From Prochlorococcus sp. AG-347-E23 (GTDB taxonomy: Bacteria; Cyanobacteriota; Cyanobacteriia; PCC-6307; Cyanobiaceae), in the NCBI GenBank assembly GCA_003281685.1, contig QCBH01000001.1, forward strand, positions 227,513 through 291,512: a stretch of DNA of 64,000 nucleotides, given 5' to 3'. Position 1 is the stretch's first letter; every line of letters begins with the position of its first letter. The position numbers and the translations under genes are program-made. The notes under the pieces are model-generated. The model was not told the origin of the DNA. It worked only from the letters and a program-made list of their open reading frames with translations, and did not search any database. Below, piece by piece: positions 3 to 33,025 of this stretch.

Positions 3-377
3 CCTGAATTGAGTTGGGCAAAAAATGCTGGTTTAGATCATGTTATTTCTAAGACTGCTGAAGAAGTAGAAGTTAGACTCGGGGATAGGATAAAAAGAGC
101 ATGTCCTGGAGATAAAGAATTAGCCATCAACGTTCAGGCTCAAGTAAGAAATATATTCGATAAGTGGAGTCGATTAGCTATTGAAAAAGATAACCAAATG
201 CAATATGGAAAAGAGGAAGGAGAATATCCATCTCTTCTTCATACCCCTTTAGATCCTGATTTAGAGGAACTTCCTCCAATTCATAGAGAATTTATTGCAA
301 ATTGGAGTTTGAGGGATGTAGAGCCAACTTCAGCTTTAATTATGACAAGAACCCATGAATTAGAGGAGTATAGCTGA
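3..377 (+). CDS. drmA: C-terminal fragment of DrmA-like helicase (DISARM), truncated by left window edge
   Basis: Reading frame is open to the window edge (in-frame CCT GAA before the TTG at 9). C-terminus '...REFIANWSLRDVEPTSALIM' resembles DrmA tails. Immediately followed by drmB and drmC. Confidence 0.75.
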   Translation, partial: PELSWAKNAGLDHVISKTAEEVEVRLGDRIKRACPGDKELAINVQAQVRNIFDKWSRLAIEKDNQMQYGKEEGEYPSLLHTPLDPDLEELPPIHREFIANWSLRDVEPTSALIMTRTHELEEYS

Positions 378-378
378 A

Positions 379-2253
379 ATGTCACAAGGAGAAGTACGGC
401 AAAGTCAATTGATAACAACTTATGGTCCTGGAGCTATGGTTGATTTGCCGGATCATTCTGTCGTTATAGGAGGATTAAATTTATGGAATTATGGTAAAGA
501 AAATAATGCAGAATTAATTGATGAGCCAAGGCTAATTCAGAAGTTAAGACAAACTTTGCAAGTACCCAATCTAGTTTTGCAAAAACCTCCAATTGATGAA
601 ACAGGACCTGGGGGTATTAAAAAAGGAGGTTTTATTAAAAGTCCTCAATTTCCAAATTGGTTTGTAGCTCAGTTAGATGAAACTATTATTTTTTATGGAC
701 GTAGATACAGAACTAGACCATTAGTTAAATCAAATCAGCTTGATGAAAGGAATAGATATATAGATATAAATAGAAAGAAACATAGAGTTGTTCCAGTTAG
801 ATTTGTTCAGAGTTGTCCGAATGGTCATTTAAGCGATGTTAATTGGAGAGATTTTGCTCATAAAGGTAATACAAATTGTAGAGAAACATTATGGTTAGAT
901 GAAGCTGGAGCTGGAAATGATTTTGCGGAAATTTTTGTTCGATGTCCTAAATGTAATATAAGAAGACCTCTATCAGATGCGAAACAATTAGCCCTTGGCG
1001 ATAAAGGAATCCCTGCTTTGGGATATTGTAATGGTGAGAGGCCATGGCTTGGATCTTATGGAAAAGAAAGATGTATCTCAAATAGTAATAATGGTGGAAG
1101 TTACCCTAATAGATTGTTAGTAAGATCAGCTAGTAACGCCTACTTTCCAGAGATAATATCAGCAATTTCAATACCCAAACCAATTGATAAAGTTAGGGAA
1201 GTTTTAATTAAAAATCTCAAGCAATTTGAAAAGATTAATACTCTAGAAACCTTAAAACTTTATCTTTCAATAGCACCTGATTATATTAGTGAACAATTGG
1301 TGGATGCAAATTTAAATGAGATTTTTGAAGCCTTAGAATCGATCAAAGGTGGTAATGAACAAAGAGGCGAAATTGAGCCATTGAAGGTTCAAGAGCTTAA
1401 AGCATTGATTGGAGTAATTGAGAATCAAAAGGAGAATTATGGAAAAAATAGTTTCGAAGCAGAAAAGGTAGATTTATCTCCAAAGCCAAAATGGTTTAAA
1501 GAGAGAATAAATCGTGTTTTAAAAGTACACAAGCTTAGGGAAGTTGTTGCTCTTTTAGGTTTTACCAGGTTAGAACCGGTTGTTAATCAGATAGATGGAG
1601 ATCCATTTGATCTTGGCGTAAAAAGGGCTTCTATCGACAACAAAGAAATTACATGGTTGCCAGCTGTAGAAAATATGGGAGAGGGAATCTTCATAGGTTT
1701 TGATCCGAATAAAATAGAAGCATGGCTCAGTGACGACAAAGTTGAAGAATATTTATCCACCCATAGAGATGCCTTTAAGATTTGGAACAAAGAACATGGA
1801 TTGAGTGAAGACGAATTTGGTTGGCCTGGTGGTGCCTACCTTATGCTTCACAGCTTATCTCACCTATTAATAACTCAAGCTGCATTAGATTGTGGTTATA
1901 GCGCTTCTTCTATAAAAGAAAGGATTTATTCTTTTTCTGGTTTAGGTTATGGGATACTTCTTTACACAGGTGGAAGTGGTTCAGAGGGGACATTAGGAGG
2001 ACTGGTTGGCTTGGCAGACAATATTGACCTCCTTCTCAAAAAGGCACTTGAAAGAGGTAAATTATGTTCTAATGATCCTTTTTGCTCTCAACATAAACCA
2101 AATAATCAATTTGAAAAAAGATATTCTCATGGGGCTGCTTGTCATAGTTGTGAATTAATTGCCGAAACAAGCTGTGAGAGAAAAAATGAGTTTTTAGATA
2201 GGTCTCTTTTAGTTCCAACTTTAGAAGAAAAAGATGCAGCATTCTTTGACTAA
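379..2253 (+). CDS. drmB: DrmB-like protein, DUF1998 family (DISARM)
   Basis: 624 aa. N-term 'VRQSQLITTYGPGAMVDLPDHSVVIGG'; Cys-rich C-term 'CSNDPFCSQH...HGAACHSCELIAETSCERKNEFLDRSLLVP' with 'GGSGSEGTLGGLV', typical of DUF1998. Starts 1 nt after the drmA stop. Confidence 0.88.
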   Translation: MSQGEVRQSQLITTYGPGAMVDLPDHSVVIGGLNLWNYGKENNAELIDEPRLIQKLRQTLQVPNLVLQKPPIDETGPGGIKKGGFIKSPQFPNWFVAQLDETIIFYGRRYRTRPLVKSNQLDERNRYIDINRKKHRVVPVRFVQSCPNGHLSDVNWRDFAHKGNTNCRETLWLDEAGAGNDFAEIFVRCPKCNIRRPLSDAKQLALGDKGIPALGYCNGERPWLGSYGKERCISNSNNGGSYPNRLLVRSASNAYFPEIISAISIPKPIDKVREVLIKNLKQFEKINTLETLKLYLSIAPDYISEQLVDANLNEIFEALESIKGGNEQRGEIEPLKVQELKALIGVIENQKENYGKNSFEAEKVDLSPKPKWFKERINRVLKVHKLREVVALLGFTRLEPVVNQIDGDPFDLGVKRASIDNKEITWLPAVENMGEGIFIGFDPNKIEAWLSDDKVEEYLSTHRDAFKIWNKEHGLSEDEFGWPGGAYLMLHSLSHLLITQAALDCGYSASSIKERIYSFSGLGYGILLYTGGSGSEGTLGGLVGLADNIDLLLKKALERGKLCSNDPFCSQHKPNNQFEKRYSHGAACHSCELIAETSCERKNEFLDRSLLVPTLEEKDAAFFD

Positions 2254-2277
2254 TGTTTTAAAAAGTAATTAAATAAA

Positions 2278-3102
2278 ATGCAAAATCCATTAATACTTTT
2301 TACTATCTCTGAACTTGACATATTAATAAAATCTCTTGATAATTTTTCTTTTCAATCAAATGCGGATGATCCTCTAGAAACTTCCAGTGCAGCTTTTATT
2401 TCAAATCTTGGTCTTTTTAAATCAGAGGATAATGAGAAACAATTGAATCTTGTTAATTGGATTGATAATTGGTTTTCCACTGGAGGTAATAGAGAAACTC
2501 TTATAAAAACACTAAATCTTTTACTTGAACAAAAAAAAGGTTTTATATCTTTAGAGAATCAACTTCAGCTTGTTTGGTCAGGTCCAGATTCTGGTTCAGG
2601 TTCCTTAATGCGAGATCAATCTATTCTTATAAAACAACTTGTCGATAGTGCTAAAGATCGACTTTTATTAACTACATATACCTTTTATAAAGGGCAATTT
2701 ATTGAAGATTTATTTTCTCAAATTAGAGAAAAGATGATAAAAAATCCAAAGTTAATTGTAAGATTCGTTTGCAATATTAATAGACCTAAAGGAAGTAATA
2801 TTTTGCCAGAAGAACTGCATCACAAATTCAAGAGAGAAACTTGGCCAAAATTATGGAGTCAATTGCCTTATCCAGAATTATATTTTGATCCTAGATCAAT
2901 AAAAATCAGTTCAAGTTCTGTTTGTCATGTAAAGGCAGTTGTTTCGGATAGAGAACTATTGGTTACAAGTGCAAATCTAACTGATTCGGCTCAGTTAAAG
3001 AATTTTGAATTAGGAGTAAAAATAGAAAGTCAATTTTCTGCAGATGCGACTTGGGATCATTTTGATAAATTAATTAAAAAGGGAATGCTTAAAAAAGTTT
3101 GA
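2278..3102 (+). CDS. drmC: DrmC-like phospholipase D-family protein (DISARM)
   Basis: PLD HKD motif 'HVKAVVSDRELLVTSANLTDSA...NFELGV'. Located directly downstream of drmB. Confidence 0.82.
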   Translation: MQNPLILFTISELDILIKSLDNFSFQSNADDPLETSSAAFISNLGLFKSEDNEKQLNLVNWIDNWFSTGGNRETLIKTLNLLLEQKKGFISLENQLQLVWSGPDSGSGSLMRDQSILIKQLVDSAKDRLLLTTYTFYKGQFIEDLFSQIREKMIKNPKLIVRFVCNINRPKGSNILPEELHHKFKRETWPKLWSQLPYPELYFDPRSIKISSSSVCHVKAVVSDRELLVTSANLTDSAQLKNFELGVKIESQFSADATWDHFDKLIKKGMLKKV

Positions 3103-3138: not shown

Positions 3139-4221
3139 TTAAGATTCTTTGGATCCATATAAATGGATAGGCCGCCCATTTTCTATTTTTTGATCTTCTC
3201 TTAATATCTTCTCCTCTGAAAATAAGTGTCTCAATACTCTTCGAGTATGTTGTTCACTAAATTCTATATTCTTTGAAATATCTTTTACATCTAGATAATC
3301 GTTTTTCTGTTTTAATAATTCTAAAATTTTGGAGCGACATAAATTTTCTTCTTTTGGTGATAATTGATTTTTACCTGAGGAGTGATAATACCATTTAAAA
3401 GTTTCTTGATCACCTTGAATATTTAGTAAAGAACCTTCGTCACAATTTCTCCCCTTTAAGCAACTGAAAAGGAAGTGATCTTCAAAATTAGGTTTAATAG
3501 ATTTATGAATACTCCAAATATCACTTGCTGCAGAATAGATTGATTGATTTCCCATTACATCATGTTTATTTACATTTCTCCTTTCGCCATGCTCTGGCTT
3601 TTTTAAGTGCGAAGAAAATATTATGGGAATATTTTTTTCGCTTGCTAAATCATTTAATTTATAAAGAGGTAATGCAAATTCAGCATCCTTATATGAATAT
3701 TTTCCGCCGGTAAGAAGAGTTGTAATGGAATCTAAAAAAACTACGTCATAATAATTTCCTATTAATTCACTCAACTTTTGAATATTAAATTTATCAAAAC
3801 CTCCATCTTTAAATAAAAAATCAACATTATCTGATACTCCAATTATTTTTATCTTATGAGCACAATTACTTCTTGATTCGTCAGCTTGAATAAATAAAAC
3901 TCTCCTCTTTTTTGCAGAAAAAGTATTTAAGAATTTACTACCTTCTCCTATAGCAGATGCCATTGCATACATTAAAGATGTTTTACCGCTGGAGGATTCA
4001 CCTGCAAGAAGTATCAGATTTTTCCTTTCAATAATTTTGTCAATTATCCAATCTACTTTTTTCGTAATTAGTTTTAAATCTTTTGATGAAATAGGTTTTT
4101 GTACATTGTTGGGCGGTGTTGATTCAATATTAAATTTTTTATGCATTTGGTTCTCGTAATTCTGATTTTGTACCTTTTGTTTTTTTTCAATGTCTACGTA
4201 GCCGAAGTCTTCTAATGTCAT
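3139..4221 (-). CDS. RecA-like/RepA-type AAA ATPase (AAA_25-like), putative replication helicase of a mobile element
   Basis: Walker A 'LLAGESSSGKTSL', Walker B-like 'YDVVFLDSITTLL', C-terminal winged-helix-like region. ATGA overlap with the upstream small HTH gene. Confidence 0.7.
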   Translation of the reverse strand: MTLEDFGYVDIEKKQKVQNQNYENQMHKKFNIESTPPNNVQKPISSKDLKLITKKVDWIIDKIIERKNLILLAGESSSGKTSLMYAMASAIGEGSKFLNTFSAKKRRVLFIQADESRSNCAHKIKIIGVSDNVDFLFKDGGFDKFNIQKLSELIGNYYDVVFLDSITTLLTGGKYSYKDAEFALPLYKLNDLASEKNIPIIFSSHLKKPEHGERRNVNKHDVMGNQSIYSAASDIWSIHKSIKPNFEDHFLFSCLKGRNCDEGSLLNIQGDQETFKWYYHSSGKNQLSPKEENLCRSKILELLKQKNDYLDVKDISKNIEFSEQHTRRVLRHLFSEEKILREDQKIENGRPIHLYGSKES

Positions 4222-4475
4222 TTTTTGACCTCCTTTTTTAATTCACTTATTATTTGTTGACCTTTTCTAATTAGACGACCTCGGTAATGAAATTCTTTAA
4301 GGATTTCAGAAACATTCCAAAGGATGCTGGAATTGATATTTGCCCCTAAGATGTAATGTTTTTCTTCGATTAAAAAACCATTTTTTATATCACGATTCTT
4401 CTTGAGAAATTGAGAACTAACTCCTAAGAATGAACTAGCCTCCTTCGTTGGAAGCCAACGTAAATCATTTTCCAT
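4218..4475 (-). CDS. Small HTH/excisionase-like DNA-binding protein
   Basis: 85 aa 'WLPTKEASSFLGVSSQFLKKNRD...', resembles HTH_17/MerR-like excisionases. Overlaps the ATPase start by 4 nt. Confidence 0.6.
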   Translation of the reverse strand: MENDLRWLPTKEASSFLGVSSQFLKKNRDIKNGFLIEEKHYILGANINSSILWNVSEILKEFHYRGRLIRKGQQIISELKKEVKK

Positions 4476-4861: not shown

Positions 4862-5950
4862 TTAATTCTTGAGTTCATTTAAGGCTAAATTTTTGTTATC
4901 AAACTTTTTTAAAGGTACTAAAAACTCCCTTTTATTTTGGTCTTCAAAAATCCCAAAAATATAATATTCTCCCATCCATCCAATAGTCCCTCCTGATTGA
5001 TAACCAATCCTAATCAAATAAGAATCATTACATTTAGATAGTTGTTTTGCTAATTGATTGCACTTGGATAAATCTACTCTTCGAAGTACTTCATAATGAG
5101 ATTTATAGCGATCATGATTCTCTTTACCTTTAATATCATTTTTTTGATAAATAATATTTTCAACCAAAACTAATTCATTCTTTGTTGCTTCATTTTTTAC
5201 AAAACCATTTTCTAAGTTCCATTTAAAACAATCATTTAAATTTATAGAAACAGAGTAAACATTATCTTTAGATATTTTTTTCTTAATTTCATAACCCAAA
5301 GGAATAGTTTTACCAATATATTCTCCTGGACTATATTCAAATTTTGTTTTATTTAGAATCCCAAATTCTTCAGTAAATAAATCTACTTTTGGTTTCTCAA
5401 AATTTCCAAATGTAGGAAAACAAGTTGGAGGAATGATTCCTTTATTTGTGTTCCAACCAATAAGATTTTTATTATCAAATTGTTCCTGATTTACTCCATT
5501 TATTGATTTAATAGTCCATTTGCCACTTTCCATTCTGTCAAACCAGATTAGACCATTAGAAATCATGAATCCTCTCCATCCAATAGAATCACAATCTATT
5601 TCTGTACTAATAACTTTAGTAACCCATTTTTTAGGGAAGATTTGATCAAAACTTTTGTTCTTTATAAATTCTCTTCTTGGCCCATTTTGAAGTTCATCAA
5701 TTAGAACATTTTTATAAATTCCTTGAATATCTTTTTTGGCTATAAGAGTTTGAATCTTTCTCCCAAAATCATGAGCTTCCTGTCTTTCATAGTAATCATA
5801 ATTTTGTTTCTTTTTTATTAATGAACAATTCTTTCTACTAGGTATTTTAATTTCTGATCTAGCTGAAAGAGGTACCGTTAAAATTATCAATAAAGTAAGT
5901 ATTAATTTCTGAAAAGAGTTCTCTGCTCGGGACTTATCTTTCTGAACCAT
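4862..5950 (-). CDS. Hypothetical exported protein
   Basis: 362 aa; N-terminal hydrophobic segment followed by AxA-like site 'LTLLIILTVPLSARSE' suggests a signal peptide. Confidence 0.6.
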   Translation of the reverse strand: MVQKDKSRAENSFQKLILTLLIILTVPLSARSEIKIPSRKNCSLIKKKQNYDYYERQEAHDFGRKIQTLIAKKDIQGIYKNVLIDELQNGPRREFIKNKSFDQIFPKKWVTKVISTEIDCDSIGWRGFMISNGLIWFDRMESGKWTIKSINGVNQEQFDNKNLIGWNTNKGIIPPTCFPTFGNFEKPKVDLFTEEFGILNKTKFEYSPGEYIGKTIPLGYEIKKKISKDNVYSVSINLNDCFKWNLENGFVKNEATKNELVLVENIIYQKNDIKGKENHDRYKSHYEVLRRVDLSKCNQLAKQLSKCNDSYLIRIGYQSGGTIGWMGEYYIFGIFEDQNKREFLVPLKKFDNKNLALNELKN

Positions 5951-6389
5951 TTACCCAGCCACCTGATCTACATTTACCAGAATTATTGATTTCGTAGCTA
6001 TCGCACCAATAGCTATTTAAAGCAAATATGACATTGCTTTTAATTCTTTTAGCACCACCTGAAACTGGCAAATAATGTATACCTTTTTTTGAATTTAATG
6101 TCTCTGAACAAAAGAAATCAGGACCGCACATTGCGTATGCTATGCCCTCCTCAGCTAAATAAAGAATTGCTCCTGACCCAGTATTTCTCCAATAAGGGAT
6201 TCCTGGTAATCCATCATCTTTTGCTTTTTGATGGTGGCGAGCAACTCTTGTTTTATTAGATTCAAAGACATATTTCCATTCAACTTTTGGGAGATTTATA
6301 AAAAGAACCCAAAAAATAATCGGTCCATATATAGCTCCTACCCAAGCCCATATTCCGTACCTTTTTTTTAGTTTGTGATTTTTAGTCAT
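5934..6389 (-). CDS. Hypothetical membrane-anchored, Cys-containing protein
   Basis: 151 aa with one N-terminal hydrophobic helix; overlaps the next gene by 17 nt. Confidence 0.55.
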   Translation of the reverse strand: MTKNHKLKKRYGIWAWVGAIYGPIIFWVLFINLPKVEWKYVFESNKTRVARHHQKAKDDGLPGIPYWRNTGSGAILYLAEEGIAYAMCGPDFFCSETLNSKKGIHYLPVSGGAKRIKSNVIFALNSYWCDSYEINNSGKCRSGGWVNGSER

Positions 6390-6723: not shown

Positions 6724-7878
6724 TTGATGAAAAATTTTGATCTAGATTTCAAACCTAAAGATTATTACGAAAAAAATATCAATAAAGAAGATTTAATAAC
6801 TCCTAAAGATATTGAAGAATTTCAAGAAAAGGGTGTAGTAATTGCAGGCATTGATTTTGGTGACGGTCCTTATAACCCCACTATTGCTCATCTAATGACT
6901 TGTTATTTTGAAGGAAAATATCATTACAAATTAGTGGTTGATGATGACGAACATGTTTATAAGATGAAGCATCATGAAAGTCTAGAGCCTTTAACTTTTA
7001 AACAGGTAATAGAAAATATTGATTCGGCAATATTAACTCATCGAGGTGGGACAGAATATGAAGAATTACCTTTAGGCGTAATGGAATCTCAACTGGTAAA
7101 AAATTTTAGTTCTGATTTAGAAAAAGAAGAAGTCCTTAATTCTTTTGATATTGGCTCAAACTTTTATCCATTAGAAGATTACTATAAAGCCAAGAAAGAA
7201 ACTTGGTTTAAACATCTTGTAAATGATGACAAAGAAGTCATAAATAAAAAATTTGATAATGCTAAAAGATTGTTATTTGATGAGTTCATAGAAAATCAAA
7301 TAAGTAATTTTGAAAAAGAACAATCATGGGCTAAACCAGGCATGTATAAAAACCTGAATGAATCAAAAAGTGAGGAAAATATTATTTTGAAAAAAATCTC
7401 AAATGGGGAATCAAAAAATTGTGAGTTTAAAGAGTCTTTAAGTTTAGACGTCCGCCAAAGTCAAAGTAATAAATCCTATCAACCTAAAAAAGAATCATAT
7501 ATAGAATTAGCGGTGCTTAAAACTATTGCTGGATTTCTAAATACTGATGGAGGAGAACTATTTATTGGTGTTAGTGATGACTCAAAAGTCTTGGGTATAG
7601 AAAATGAGTTAATTAAACTCCACAAGTCTTCAAAGGATAAATTTCAACTCCATTTAAAAACATTAATCAAAGAAAATATTGGTTTAGGTTCAAGTAATTT
7701 CATTAATTTAGAATTAAAAACTATAAATGATAAAGAGATAATTCATGTGTCATGCAAGAAATCAGATGAACCAATTTATATTAAGGATAAAGATTTTTAT
7801 ATTAGAACAGGACCTGCAACAGATAAGTTAGAAGGTCGCGAATTAGTAAACTATACAACTAGTAGATTTAAGGATTAA
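6724..7878 (+). CDS. AlbA_2/Schlafen-like domain protein with an unrecognised N-terminal domain
   Basis: C-terminal half 'NCEFKESLSLD...LKTIAGFLNTDGGELFIGVSDDSKVLGIENEL...FYIRTGPATDKLEGRELVNYTTSRF' matches the AlbA_2 pattern; the first ~220 aa were not recognised. Confidence 0.75.
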   Translation: MMKNFDLDFKPKDYYEKNINKEDLITPKDIEEFQEKGVVIAGIDFGDGPYNPTIAHLMTCYFEGKYHYKLVVDDDEHVYKMKHHESLEPLTFKQVIENIDSAILTHRGGTEYEELPLGVMESQLVKNFSSDLEKEEVLNSFDIGSNFYPLEDYYKAKKETWFKHLVNDDKEVINKKFDNAKRLLFDEFIENQISNFEKEQSWAKPGMYKNLNESKSEENIILKKISNGESKNCEFKESLSLDVRQSQSNKSYQPKKESYIELAVLKTIAGFLNTDGGELFIGVSDDSKVLGIENELIKLHKSSKDKFQLHLKTLIKENIGLGSSNFINLELKTINDKEIIHVSCKKSDEPIYIKDKDFYIRTGPATDKLEGRELVNYTTSRFKD

Positions 7879-7955: not shown

Positions 7956-8120
7956 TTATTTTAAATTGTTTTTAAAAACTACTAACCATTTTAAAAATTC
8001 TTTCCAATCTTCAGCCTTACAAAAAGCTATATGAATTTCGTGTCTTTGATCTACTGAATAACACTTATGGTTCATTATCTTTGCCAAAGTTCTTGAATGG
8101 TATGGAGTTCCATCATTCAT
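7956..8120 (-). CDS. Small hypothetical island protein
   Basis: Start set at internal MNDG; short overlap with the upstream zinc-ribbon gene. Confidence 0.5.
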   Translation of the reverse strand: MNDGTPYHSRTLAKIMNHKCYSVDQRHEIHIAFCKAEDWKEFLKWLVVFKNNLK

Positions 8121-8409
8121 TTTCTTTCCTCCATTCTTCGATTTGTTTTGCATGATCTCTCATTTTTGGAGTATCTTTCCAAAACTTACTATCACACTCT
8201 CTACAACCAAACTTGCATTGAACAGGAGTTGGGTCTGGTATGCAACCAATTATGAATAGTGATTCATCGTAAAAATCTTCTTCACTTGGATAACCAAGAA
8301 TAGCTTTCCCAATATTTCTGGAATTACATGAAGGACATCTATAAGGTTTTCGATCTACCAAATACCAATTTGTATCTCCAAAACTTTCAATTTTTTCTGC
8401 GTATGCCAT
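8113..8409 (-). CDS. Small zinc-ribbon hypothetical protein
   Basis: CPSC...CKFGC..C Cys pairs in 98 aa; abuts the integrase stop. Confidence 0.6.
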   Translation of the reverse strand: MAYAEKIESFGDTNWYLVDRKPYRCPSCNSRNIGKAILGYPSEEDFYDESLFIIGCIPDPTPVQCKFGCRECDSKFWKDTPKMRDHAKQIEEWRKENE

Positions 8410-8411
8410 AA

Positions 8412-9761
8412 CTAAACCTCAATCCTGTTTTTTAAATGTCTTTCAAATGCTTTTTCTAAGCTAAGTTCCGTTGTGTAGGAACCATAAAAAGAATTATGAG
8501 TTTCAACAGAATGGCCCATTGCCGCCGCCGCATCTTTTACTGATATTGGGATAGTTGAACCTTTATGACATTGATGGGCATATCTATGTCTCAAACTATA
8601 AGGTGTTATTTCAGGGTTAGTTTTAATTATTTCTCTCCATACCTTATTCCTTTCAATTAATTGCCTTAGTGATTGACCAACATCACCATATTTATTTTTA
8701 TCTTTTACCATTTCTATTTGATTTAGGACTGGCATCGGTAAGGTAATCTTTTTTGATTCGAATAGTTCTATAAGGTTTTGGCCGAGGTTTTTCCTCGCCA
8801 AAAGGTCCATAGGAAAAACTCTTCTATCTTCCTTTTTTGCTTTTGTGTTTATATTATTTTTGATATTACCAACATATAGTTTGCCATCTACAACTCTAAG
8901 AACTGCAAGTTCAGAAAGCCTTAAGCCAAAAATAGAAATCAAGCCAACTGCTAGAAATAATGAAGAATCTCTTGATTCAAGATCATCTAATAATCTAAGT
9001 AAATCATTCTCCTCTATATATGGAGTTAATTTATCTTGTTTAGTTCTATTAGATTTTCCAATTAGTTCTTTTCTATAGGCTTCGCTTGGAGGTTTCCACC
9101 TTTTTTCGTTCTGTGAATGTCTTTCTATTCCATATTTTAGAATCTCACACCAAGCATTGATATATCTTTTTCTTTCATCAGGTTCTATATCAATAAGGTA
9201 TTTATCCGATAATTTCTTTATAAGCTCAACTCCTGTATTTGGAGAGGGATTATTATTCATTTCTTCTAAGAATCTACTAATTCTCCGAGCCCAATCTTTT
9301 TCGGTTTTACTTGTTAAACCTTGTTTGGTTTGCATGAACTGATCAACCTTTGACGCAGCATTTAAATATGCTTTTAAATCCTTTTCATAGTTGGCATCAT
9401 TTTTATTTATAGGCCTTATTAATAAGAAATCATTCCAACTTTTATTAGGTTGTTTTGTTGCTTCTCCGATGAATTGAGATTTCCATCTTCTTGTAGCTTC
9501 TTTGAGAGTTAGGTTTTTTTCAACTACTAATGGTTTTATAAATTCGATAGCTTTTAGGATTTCTATCCCTGAGGTTTTCTTCCATTCGATGGGTAAGGTT
9601 TGAGAGGTTCTTTTGTTGGCAGAACCTAGCCCTTCGTTATAAACATATAATAGTTTTGTTCTACCGCTATTTTCGCCATTAACCCTAATTCCACGACCAA
9701 AATTAGTGCAGATATTTTTTCTTAATTCTTTTTCCCAAGAAGTGCTCTTGGCACTAGTCAT
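8412..9761 (-). CDS. int: Tyrosine recombinase/integrase
   Basis: Catalytic-type motifs 'FGLRLSELAVL', 'YSLRHRYAHQ', 'MGHSVETHNSFYGSY'. Sits ~130 bp from the 3' end of tRNA-Thr. Confidence 0.9.
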   Translation of the reverse strand: MTSAKSTSWEKELRKNICTNFGRGIRVNGENSGRTKLLYVYNEGLGSANKRTSQTLPIEWKKTSGIEILKAIEFIKPLVVEKNLTLKEATRRWKSQFIGEATKQPNKSWNDFLLIRPINKNDANYEKDLKAYLNAASKVDQFMQTKQGLTSKTEKDWARRISRFLEEMNNNPSPNTGVELIKKLSDKYLIDIEPDERKRYINAWCEILKYGIERHSQNEKRWKPPSEAYRKELIGKSNRTKQDKLTPYIEENDLLRLLDDLESRDSSLFLAVGLISIFGLRLSELAVLRVVDGKLYVGNIKNNINTKAKKEDRRVFPMDLLARKNLGQNLIELFESKKITLPMPVLNQIEMVKDKNKYGDVGQSLRQLIERNKVWREIIKTNPEITPYSLRHRYAHQCHKGSTIPISVKDAAAAMGHSVETHNSFYGSYTTELSLEKAFERHLKNRIEV

Positions 9762-9794
9762 TTTAAAAGTGTAATTAGTGCAAATATTAGTGCA
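9702..9794. repeat. Three direct ATTAGTGCA repeats (9702-9710, 9774-9782, 9786-9794), possible integrase arm-type sites
   Basis: Read directly; extended forms ATTAGTGCA(G/A)(A)AT(A)TT. One inverted GCACTA core at 9751-9756. Confidence 0.6.
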
Positions 9795-9841: not shown

Positions 9842-9889
9842 ATCTTAGCTTATTTCTTATAACTTCATTCGTAGCGATGCTTTTGGCCA

Positions 9890-9961
<72 letters not shown>

Positions 9962-9971
9962 AATTTTAAAG

Positions 9972-31489: not shown

Positions 31490-33025
31490 ATGAAATCTAT
31501 AAAATTACATAAACTTTTAGATTTGGTAGGAATTATTCCTTCATTAGATTTAATCGATCGTGAAATTAATAATATTTCTTTTCACTCTAAAGAAGTACAA
31601 AAAGGAACTTTATTTTTAGGTATGCCTGGTTTAAATGTTGATGGAGGAAAATATTGTATTGAGGCAATTGAAAATGGCGCGGAGGCTGCCATTATTGGCC
31701 CTGCTGCAAAAAAGAAAATTGGATCTATTGATCGAGAAAGGATTTTGGTTATAGAGGATAATTTAGATTATATTTTTGGTCAAATAGTCGCTGAGTTTTG
31801 GAATAGGCCTTCAAGAAAACTTAAACTTATTGGTGTTACGGGTACAAATGGAAAAACGACAATTACTTTTTTATTGGAATATCTTTTAAAAAAATTAGGG
31901 AAAAAGACTGCATTATTTGGGACCTTGCTCAATAGATGGCCTGGCTTCTCAGAAGTGGCTTCTCATACAACTGATTTCGCCGATAAACTTCAAAAGAAAT
32001 TAAATGCTGCTGTTGAGGCAGAATCTGAATTCGCGATCTTAGAGGTAAGTTCTCATTCTATTGCTCAAAACAGGGTATCAGGCTGCGAATTTGAGGCGGC
32101 TATTTTTACTAATTTAACTCAAGATCATCTTGATTATCACTTAGATATGGAATCATATTTTCAAACAAAAAGAAAATTATTTTTCCCACCTTATTTAAAA
32201 GAAGAAGATGGAATTTGTGTATTAAATCATGATGACCCTTGGATATCTAAATTATCATCTGATCTTGAAAAAGTATCTTCATTAGTCTCGACAAAGATTA
32301 CTGACAGTGAATTTGAAAATGATGATTTTTTTTTCGTAACAGAGAAAAAATTTACTTCAAGTGGTTCCACTTGTATTTTTCATACACCTAGTGAAAAAAT
32401 TCAACTTTTTGTTCCACTTGTCGGTGAATTTAATTTAATGAATGCTATTCAAGCAGTAACAATTTTGTATAAACTTAATTTTTCTTTAAATGATCTATCA
32501 AAGTTAATACAATCTTTCCCTGGAACTCCTGGGAGAATGGAGAAAATACAAATTGATAATGATTTCGTTTTAAGATCACTTCCAACAGTAATTGTTGATT
32601 ATGCCCACACACCTGATGGATTAAAAAAAGTTTTGCAATCAATTAAAAAACTTTGTCAAGGAAAACTCATAACTGTTTTTGGCTGTGGCGGAGATCGAGA
32701 CCGAAGTAAAAGGCCTTTAATGGGATCAATAGCTGAGGAGTTTTCTGATCAACTTTTTATAACTTCAGATAATCCAAGATCAGAAGAACCCCAAAAGATA
32801 GTAAATGATATTTTGATGGGTATAAAAAAAAGAGAAAAAATAACAATTGAGATTGATAGATTTAAAGCAATAAATGAATCTATTAAATTTGCCAATAAAG
32901 AAGATATTGTTTTAATTGCAGGGAAAGGACATGAAGACTACCAAATTCTCAATGATAAAGTTATTAATTTTGATGATAGAAAAATAGCTTATGAATTATT
33001 AAAAGAAAAAAGTAAATCTCAATAA
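31490..33025 (+). CDS. murE: UDP-MurNAc-tripeptide synthetase MurE
   Basis: 'GVTGTNGKTTITFLLEYLL', 'DNPRSEEP', 'AGKGHEDYQ'. Confidence 0.95.
   Translation: MKSIKLHKLLDLVGIIPSLDLIDREINNISFHSKEVQKGTLFLGMPGLNVDGGKYCIEAIENGAEAAIIGPAAKKKIGSIDRERILVIEDNLDYIFGQIVAEFWNRPSRKLKLIGVTGTNGKTTITFLLEYLLKKLGKKTALFGTLLNRWPGFSEVASHTTDFADKLQKKLNAAVEAESEFAILEVSSHSIAQNRVSGCEFEAAIFTNLTQDHLDYHLDMESYFQTKRKLFFPPYLKEEDGICVLNHDDPWISKLSSDLEKVSSLVSTKITDSEFENDDFFFVTEKKFTSSGSTCIFHTPSEKIQLFVPLVGEFNLMNAIQAVTILYKLNFSLNDLSKLIQSFPGTPGRMEKIQIDNDFVLRSLPTVIVDYAHTPDGLKKVLQSIKKLCQGKLITVFGCGGDRDRSKRPLMGSIAEEFSDQLFITSDNPRSEEPQKIVNDILMGIKKREKITIEIDRFKAINESIKFANKEDIVLIAGKGHEDYQILNDKVINFDDRKIAYELLKEKSKSQ

Follow-up and report, generated by a model that had tools for sequence, protein, structure and literature searches.

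Class 1 DISARM, reportedly described by Ofir et al. in 2018, joins drmD, drmMI, drmA, drmB and drmC in one operon, with an adenine-type methyltransferase and a PLD nuclease. Tycheposons are said to have been described from Prochlorococcus by Hackl et al. in 2023. Prochlorococcus is abundant and streamlined, and it is usually thought to be phage-resistant chiefly through surface changes. In the passages of PMC10872708 on tycheposons, a size of 4-200 kb is reported and seven tRNAs are listed. The DrmAB structure of the Serratia DISARM has been solved (PDB 7s9v/7s9w, PMC9142583). A trigger loop holds DrmAB in an autoinhibited state, 5'-overhang DNA activates it and methylated DNA stimulates it less, while DrmC is dispensable in the DISARM studied (PMC9142583). 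In E. coli, tRNA-integrated defence islands carry ARMADA, Druantia and Zorya (PMC12458937).

According to our analysis, the locus described here is very probably an entire class 1 DISARM that forms the cargo of an integrative, tycheposon-like element inserted in tRNA-Thr(GGT), with a defence role by homology, a mobile carrier and a separately exchanged recognition half in DrmMI. The window, i.e. the whole stretch of 64,000 nucleotides that was analysed (G000:C1:227513-291512), belongs to an assembly of 1.5 Mb in 31 contigs (G000). To the left of the window lie 227.5 kb of the same contig (C1), and contig coordinates equal window coordinates plus 227512. A first-pass annotation had noticed three tightly packed plus-strand genes at the start of the window, and these are the open reading frames 3-377, 379-2253 and 2278-3102, with gaps of 1 base (drmA-drmB) and 24 bases (drmB-drmC). 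The first is open at its 5' end and holds the last 124 codons of drmA, so that its description as a DrmA-like tail was correct (PADLOC DrmA C-terminus, 1.5e-12). The second, drmB, encodes 624 aa (PADLOC DrmB 4.5e-84; NCBIfam DrmB family 574 bits, cut-off 240) and is the full DUF1998 protein it had been taken for; the DUF1998 region corresponds to Pfam MZB at residues 493-591, with cysteine pairs at 563/569 and 588/591. The third, drmC, encodes a predicted PLD-type nuclease of 274 aa (PADLOC DrmC 2.4e-47), and the HKD motif seen in it earlier is HVKAVVSD at residue 217, in a Pfam PLDc_2 domain.

The same annotation had placed a complete DISARM across the left edge, and had proposed to extend the contig leftward, to run PADLOC HMMs and to look for a linked methyltransferase. 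On the same contig, drmB and drmC are indeed preceded by drmD (C1:216949-220224, 1091 aa), drmMI (C1:220224-224363, 1379 aa) and the whole drmA (C1:224368-227889, 1173 aa), and the PADLOC models match DrmA, DrmB and DrmC. The linked methyltransferase is DrmMI (PADLOC DrmMI 1064 bits, nearly full length), with the Pfam domains Eco57I and MmeI_TRD and the motifs DPAMGSGAF and NPPF; a search of NCBIfam with this protein gave no DrmMI model match. DrmD is a SNF2-like helicase (NF038317 DISARM_DrmD 994 bits, cut-off 610) with the motifs GLGKT, DEAH and QRNGRIDR. DrmA matches NCBIfam DISARM_DrmAS with 1077 bits (cut-off 950) and contains GGGKT and DELH. The expected DrmA helicase is therefore present upstream, but it is a YprA-type SF2 helicase and not the SNF2-like one, which in this operon is DrmD. 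The drmD, drmMI and drmA genes overlap by one base or are 4 bases apart, and the operon drmD-drmMI-drmA-drmB-drmC covers 13.7 kb with five intact open reading frames, among whose products Walker, DEAH-type, SAM-binding, NPPF and HKD motifs are all represented. Upstream of drmD, scans for promoters and terminators returned matches at chance level only.

The presence of drmD and drmMI in the operon assigns it to class 1. The drmA helicase and drmB (DUF1998) are separate adjacent genes, as in class 1 DISARM, and the class 2 markers drmE and the cytosine methyltransferase drmMII are not in the operon. By homology, the system is a complete class 1 DISARM in a five-gene operon. It differs from class 1 DISARM in that DrmC, with 112 bits for NCBIfam DISARM_DrmC_I, falls just under the cut-off of 133, and in its location on a small tRNA-Thr element within a genome of 1.5 Mb. 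That the operon instead belongs to a different system with a helicase of this family (ARMADA, Druantia or BREX) is extremely improbable. A BrxHII-like helicase and a PglX-like methyltransferase are found in ARMADA too (PMC12458937), and DrmD matches the BrxH and DpdE models, but more weakly. However, separate DrmA and DrmB genes are a DISARM trait (PMC12458937), the DISARM equivalog models for DrmA and DrmD and the subfamily model for DrmB all score above their cut-offs, and the ARMADA-like system found at the same tRNA site in another genome (G504, see below), with its very long DruE-like helicase, looks quite different.

Both subunits resemble the solved Serratia proteins. DrmA is homologous to 7s9v_A (1.3e-150), and the match extends across the region of the trigger loop as published (chain residues 176-232; PMC9142583), while DrmB is homologous to 7s9v_B over its whole length (4.7e-94). 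Unlike the Serratia protein of 1325 aa, the Prochlorococcus DrmA is the short form DrmAS, with 1173 aa. By analogy, DrmMI, an N6-adenine methyltransferase according to its motifs, would mark the host's own DNA at sites chosen by its C-terminal recognition half. The trigger loop of DrmA would keep DrmAB inactive until it meets DNA that is unmodified and has a single-stranded 5' end, as might arise from phage injection or replication. Loaded DrmAB would then block or unwind the unmodified DNA with the assistance of DrmD, and DrmC or another nuclease may cut afterwards. Both methylation and phage defence are thus predicted activities of this operon.

The closest named relatives of the locus are in Prochlorococcus sp. 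AG-347-I04 and AG-355-A09, of the same genus group, whose DrmA is 92-93% identical to that of the window; the description of the locus as Prochlorococcus-like agrees with this. DISARM is rare in the genus. Of the 266 genomes in the genus group, 5 have a DrmA relative, which is close in three (the window genome included) and only 34-46% identical in two (G522, G447). In the family Cyanobiaceae, DrmA exceeds the NCBIfam cut-off in 34 out of 400 genomes, and the nearest DrmA outside the genus is about 63% identical over its full length, with partial copies reaching 68%. Other Cyanobiaceae (Synechococcus-like) genomes also carry class 1 DISARM. Unlike these, the three Prochlorococcus copies are tight in DrmA (91-93% identical), their DrmMI N-halves form one clade, and their genomes are much smaller.

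The METHYLTRANSFERASE mosaic is seen when the proteins of the window genome are compared with those of AG-355-A09 (G498). The identity is 83% for DrmD, 93% for DrmA, 95% for DrmB and DrmC, 97% for the recombinase of the carrying element and 53% for DrmMI, where it drops sharply past residue 700. Among the three Prochlorococcus loci, the N-halves of DrmMI are 67-71% identical and the C-halves, i.e. the NPPF region, the recognition domain and the C-terminal domain, 33-47%; in the trees the C-half does not group all three loci. As a control, 25 DISARM loci of the family were compared in 210 pairs. The identity of DrmA correlates with that of the DrmMI N-half with r=0.95, and with that of the C-half with r=0.36. 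For G142 against G148 or G155, DrmA is 95-96% identical and the C-halves only 54-55%, while in 29 pairs with DrmA at 44-48% the C-halves reach 57-69%. General fast divergence would not yield such a pattern of pairs, but exchange of the C-half would. Because the N-half tracks DrmA and the C-half hardly does so, the comparisons indicate that the recognition half of DrmMI is swapped between relatives, separately from the rest of DISARM. The C-half also holds the NPPF motif and the C-terminal domain, and a changed specificity is therefore likely rather than proved. Given this separate exchange, the DNA motifs protected by almost identical DISARM machines probably differ from cell to cell.

The tree names no donor for the C-half of the window genome, whose branch is very long and without a close relative in the set. 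In BrxX of BREX the recognition domain is likewise the most variable part (PMC11842806). The decoupling of the recognition half points to a modular specificity in DISARM, comparable to that of Type I, Type IIG and BREX methyltransferases; in the literature consulted we found no report of such a modular DISARM specificity.

The genomic island proposed by the first-pass annotation turned out to be an element of 23.2 kb (23,178 bp) integrated in tRNA-Thr(GGT), with its own tyrosine recombinase, exact edges and DISARM as cargo. The target gene lies at window 9889-9962 on the minus strand. A perfect direct repeat of 46 bp, identical to the 3' part of this tRNA gene, bounds the element on both sides; the right copy, the attachment site, is at window 9890-9935 and the left copy at C1:214270-214315. 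The tyrosine recombinase (integrase; window 8412-9761, minus strand, 449 aa) starts 127 bp from the tRNA gene and matches NCBIfam recomb_XerA_Arch (2.8e-08, below the cut-off) and a PHROG integrase family (5.3e-05). Near the recombinase end, three plus-strand ATTAGTGCA repeats start at window 9702, 9774 and 9786 (9702-9794), and a fourth copy at C1:214395 is 125 bp inside the opposite end. These four are the only copies in the element, all near its edges, and they are candidate arm sites of the recombinase.

Between drmC and the recombinase, the element encodes on the minus strand a DnaB- or primase-helicase-like ATPase (window 3139-4221, 360 aa; Pfam AAA_25 3.4e-14; PHROG DNA primase/helicase 2e-15), overlapped by the gene of an 85-aa protein (window 4218-4475) that is conserved in AG-355-A09 and has no Pfam or PHROG family match. 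ATPase-like genes also occur in elements of other genomes at the tRNA-Thr site. A cargo protein of 384 aa with a Schlafen/AlbA_2 domain (window 6724-7878, plus strand; Pfam SLFN_AlbA_2 7.9e-18) has counterparts in the elements of G371 and G590. A cysteine-rich protein of 98 aa (window 8113-8409, minus strand), conserved in AG-355-A09, is encoded immediately downstream of the recombinase gene.

In AG-355-A09 the element is present in the same arrangement, DISARM included, and its repeats lie at 32678 and 56708. When its flanks are joined in silico, they match the natural empty site of G095 without gaps (97.3% over 1577 bp), which fixes the edges of the element. Natural empty sites exist, e.g. 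in G095, G316, G252 and G359. The recombinase would move the element between the two 46-bp copies of the tRNA-Thr repeat, and by such movement whole defence systems would be gained or lost at one chromosomal site. Another 8 genomes of this genus have recombinase copies with at least 91% identity, which lie next to tRNA-Thr wherever the locus was checked, and only AG-355-A09 among these 8 also has a DrmA relative. Viral contigs scanned with DrmA, the recombinase and the element ATPase gave no confirmed relative; this is weak evidence, and it lends no support to transfer in particles.

In AG-347-I04 (G510), drmC directly adjoins tRNA-Thr with no recombinase between them, and at least one copy therefore looks immobilised. 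The left part of this locus, on a separate contig, has the same flank on its left side, and drmMI is truncated by a contig end. The loss of the recombinase side in this genome, together with the rarity of DISARM in the genus, could be taken as signs of a decaying, non-functional island whose frames are intact through recent arrival only. We consider this very unlikely: the five frames and their motifs are all intact, the DrmA, DrmB and DrmC proteins are still 93-95% identical from cell to cell, and DrmMI diversifies and does not degrade.

With its tyrosine recombinase at a tRNA gene, its bounding repeats and its size within 4-200 kb, this cargo island is similar to tycheposons, to which it is likened from the description given in passages of PMC10872708. 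It differs from them in its cargo, a large defence system here and nutrient genes in the tycheposons of those passages. The E. coli islands (PMC12458937) share with it a site-specific integrase, direct repeats of which one is in a tRNA gene, and exchangeable defence cargo. Unlike them, our element has a repeat of 46 bp instead of 16-20 bp, no recognised phage-like excisionase or HUH replication gene, and a marine picocyanobacterium as host.

Six further elements (G331, G504, G067, G259, G245, G167) are bounded on each side by the repeat, with no more than one mismatch and a spacing of 17-25 kb. The genomes were chosen partly for having the recombinase, and the cargo listed here consists of examples and does not give frequencies. 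In G590 (L107:467-11473), PADLOC finds the BREX proteins BrxB, BrxC, PglX and PglZ in an element whose recombinase is 91% identical. G504 (L103:4403-18669) has the same recombinase and, in tandem, a SNF2-like (DrmD/BrxH-like) helicase, a Type IIG/DrmMI-like methyltransferase of 1625 aa and a DruE-like helicase of 2155 aa. The gene order is that reported for cyanobacterial ARMADA (PMC12458937), and this cargo is likely an ARMADA type I system. PADLOC also finds MzaB-E with a cytosine methyltransferase and a Vsr endonuclease in G238 (L117:7715-16812), and PDC-M33A-C candidates at the tRNA-Thr site of G191; Mza-like proteins are present at this site in G259 and G245. The cargo of G394 and G067, both outside the defence scan, looks metabolic. 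The two genomes with distant DrmA, G522 (L031:91-8667, G522:C8) and G447 (L032, G447:C41), have a divergent DrmA-DrmB pair flanked by two helicases, one UvrD/GajB-like and the other NERD-UvrD, at tRNA-Thr in G522. No methyltransferase or PLD gene was seen at these two loci, where both contigs end upstream, and the cassette may be a DISARM-related variant.

In the window genome, 137 bp just left of the element (C1:214133-214269; L003:2133-2269) match the tRNA-proximal end of the elements with a 330-aa integrase (G259, G238), which suggests successive insertions at the site. A tblastn search left of the element found no remnant of this second integrase type. Such a left neighbour, resembling the end of another element type, and the insertion of unrelated elements at the same contested site fit an alternative in which the operon is a DISARM by descent that mainly protects its element, either by keeping rival elements or plasmids out of the tRNA site or by acting as an addiction module, with phage defence of the host as a side effect. 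A report cited in a passage of PMC9142583, in which DISARM acts on conjugating plasmids, points the same way. However, much of the other cargo at the site consists of known or predicted anti-phage systems (BREX, Mza-like, ARMADA-like), and the element has no recognised conjugation gene. We regard this alternative as improbable, though less so than decay.

We prefer a host defence system on a mobile element. A mobile DISARM of 13.7 kb, at a site where comparable systems interchange, points to an active and exchangeable intracellular defence. We give an even chance to the broader proposal that the tRNA-Thr site is a socket for swapping whole large defence systems among related cells, with the recognition half of the DISARM methyltransferase recombining on its own. 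If this is true, otherwise similar cells would carry different immune alleles, and across cyanobacteria self/non-self marking by DISARM would be a trait that evolves fast and can be exchanged. DISARM itself is already known; judged from its genes and their context, what is new is to find a rare and mobile representative in a picocyanobacterium with a streamlined genome, an informative setting. Among titles, abstracts and some matching passages of the literature on DISARM together with Prochlorococcus, we found no paper describing such a system.

Some smaller features of these elements were also recorded. The loci with Vsr, cytosine methyltransferase or Mza-like genes (G238, L113 in G259, L115 in G245 and L118 in G167) have a different integrase of about 330 aa. 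A high-light-inducible-like gene is located just left of the element in the window genome (C1:213055-213390; L003:1055-1390), where layered insertions are suggested. A conserved protein of 107-113 aa adjoins the left repeat in several elements with the same recombinase type (L003:2428-2751, L027:2836-3177; PHROG 34910). The idea that this 107/113-aa protein is a satellite-type small terminase is unsupported, as the PHROGs gave mainly families of unknown function. Small proteins of secreted or membrane type, at window 4862-6389 and L003:3293-4771, are recurrent in these elements, and one of them, a protein of 151 aa (window 5934-6389), has a stretch of 80% identity in the element of G522.
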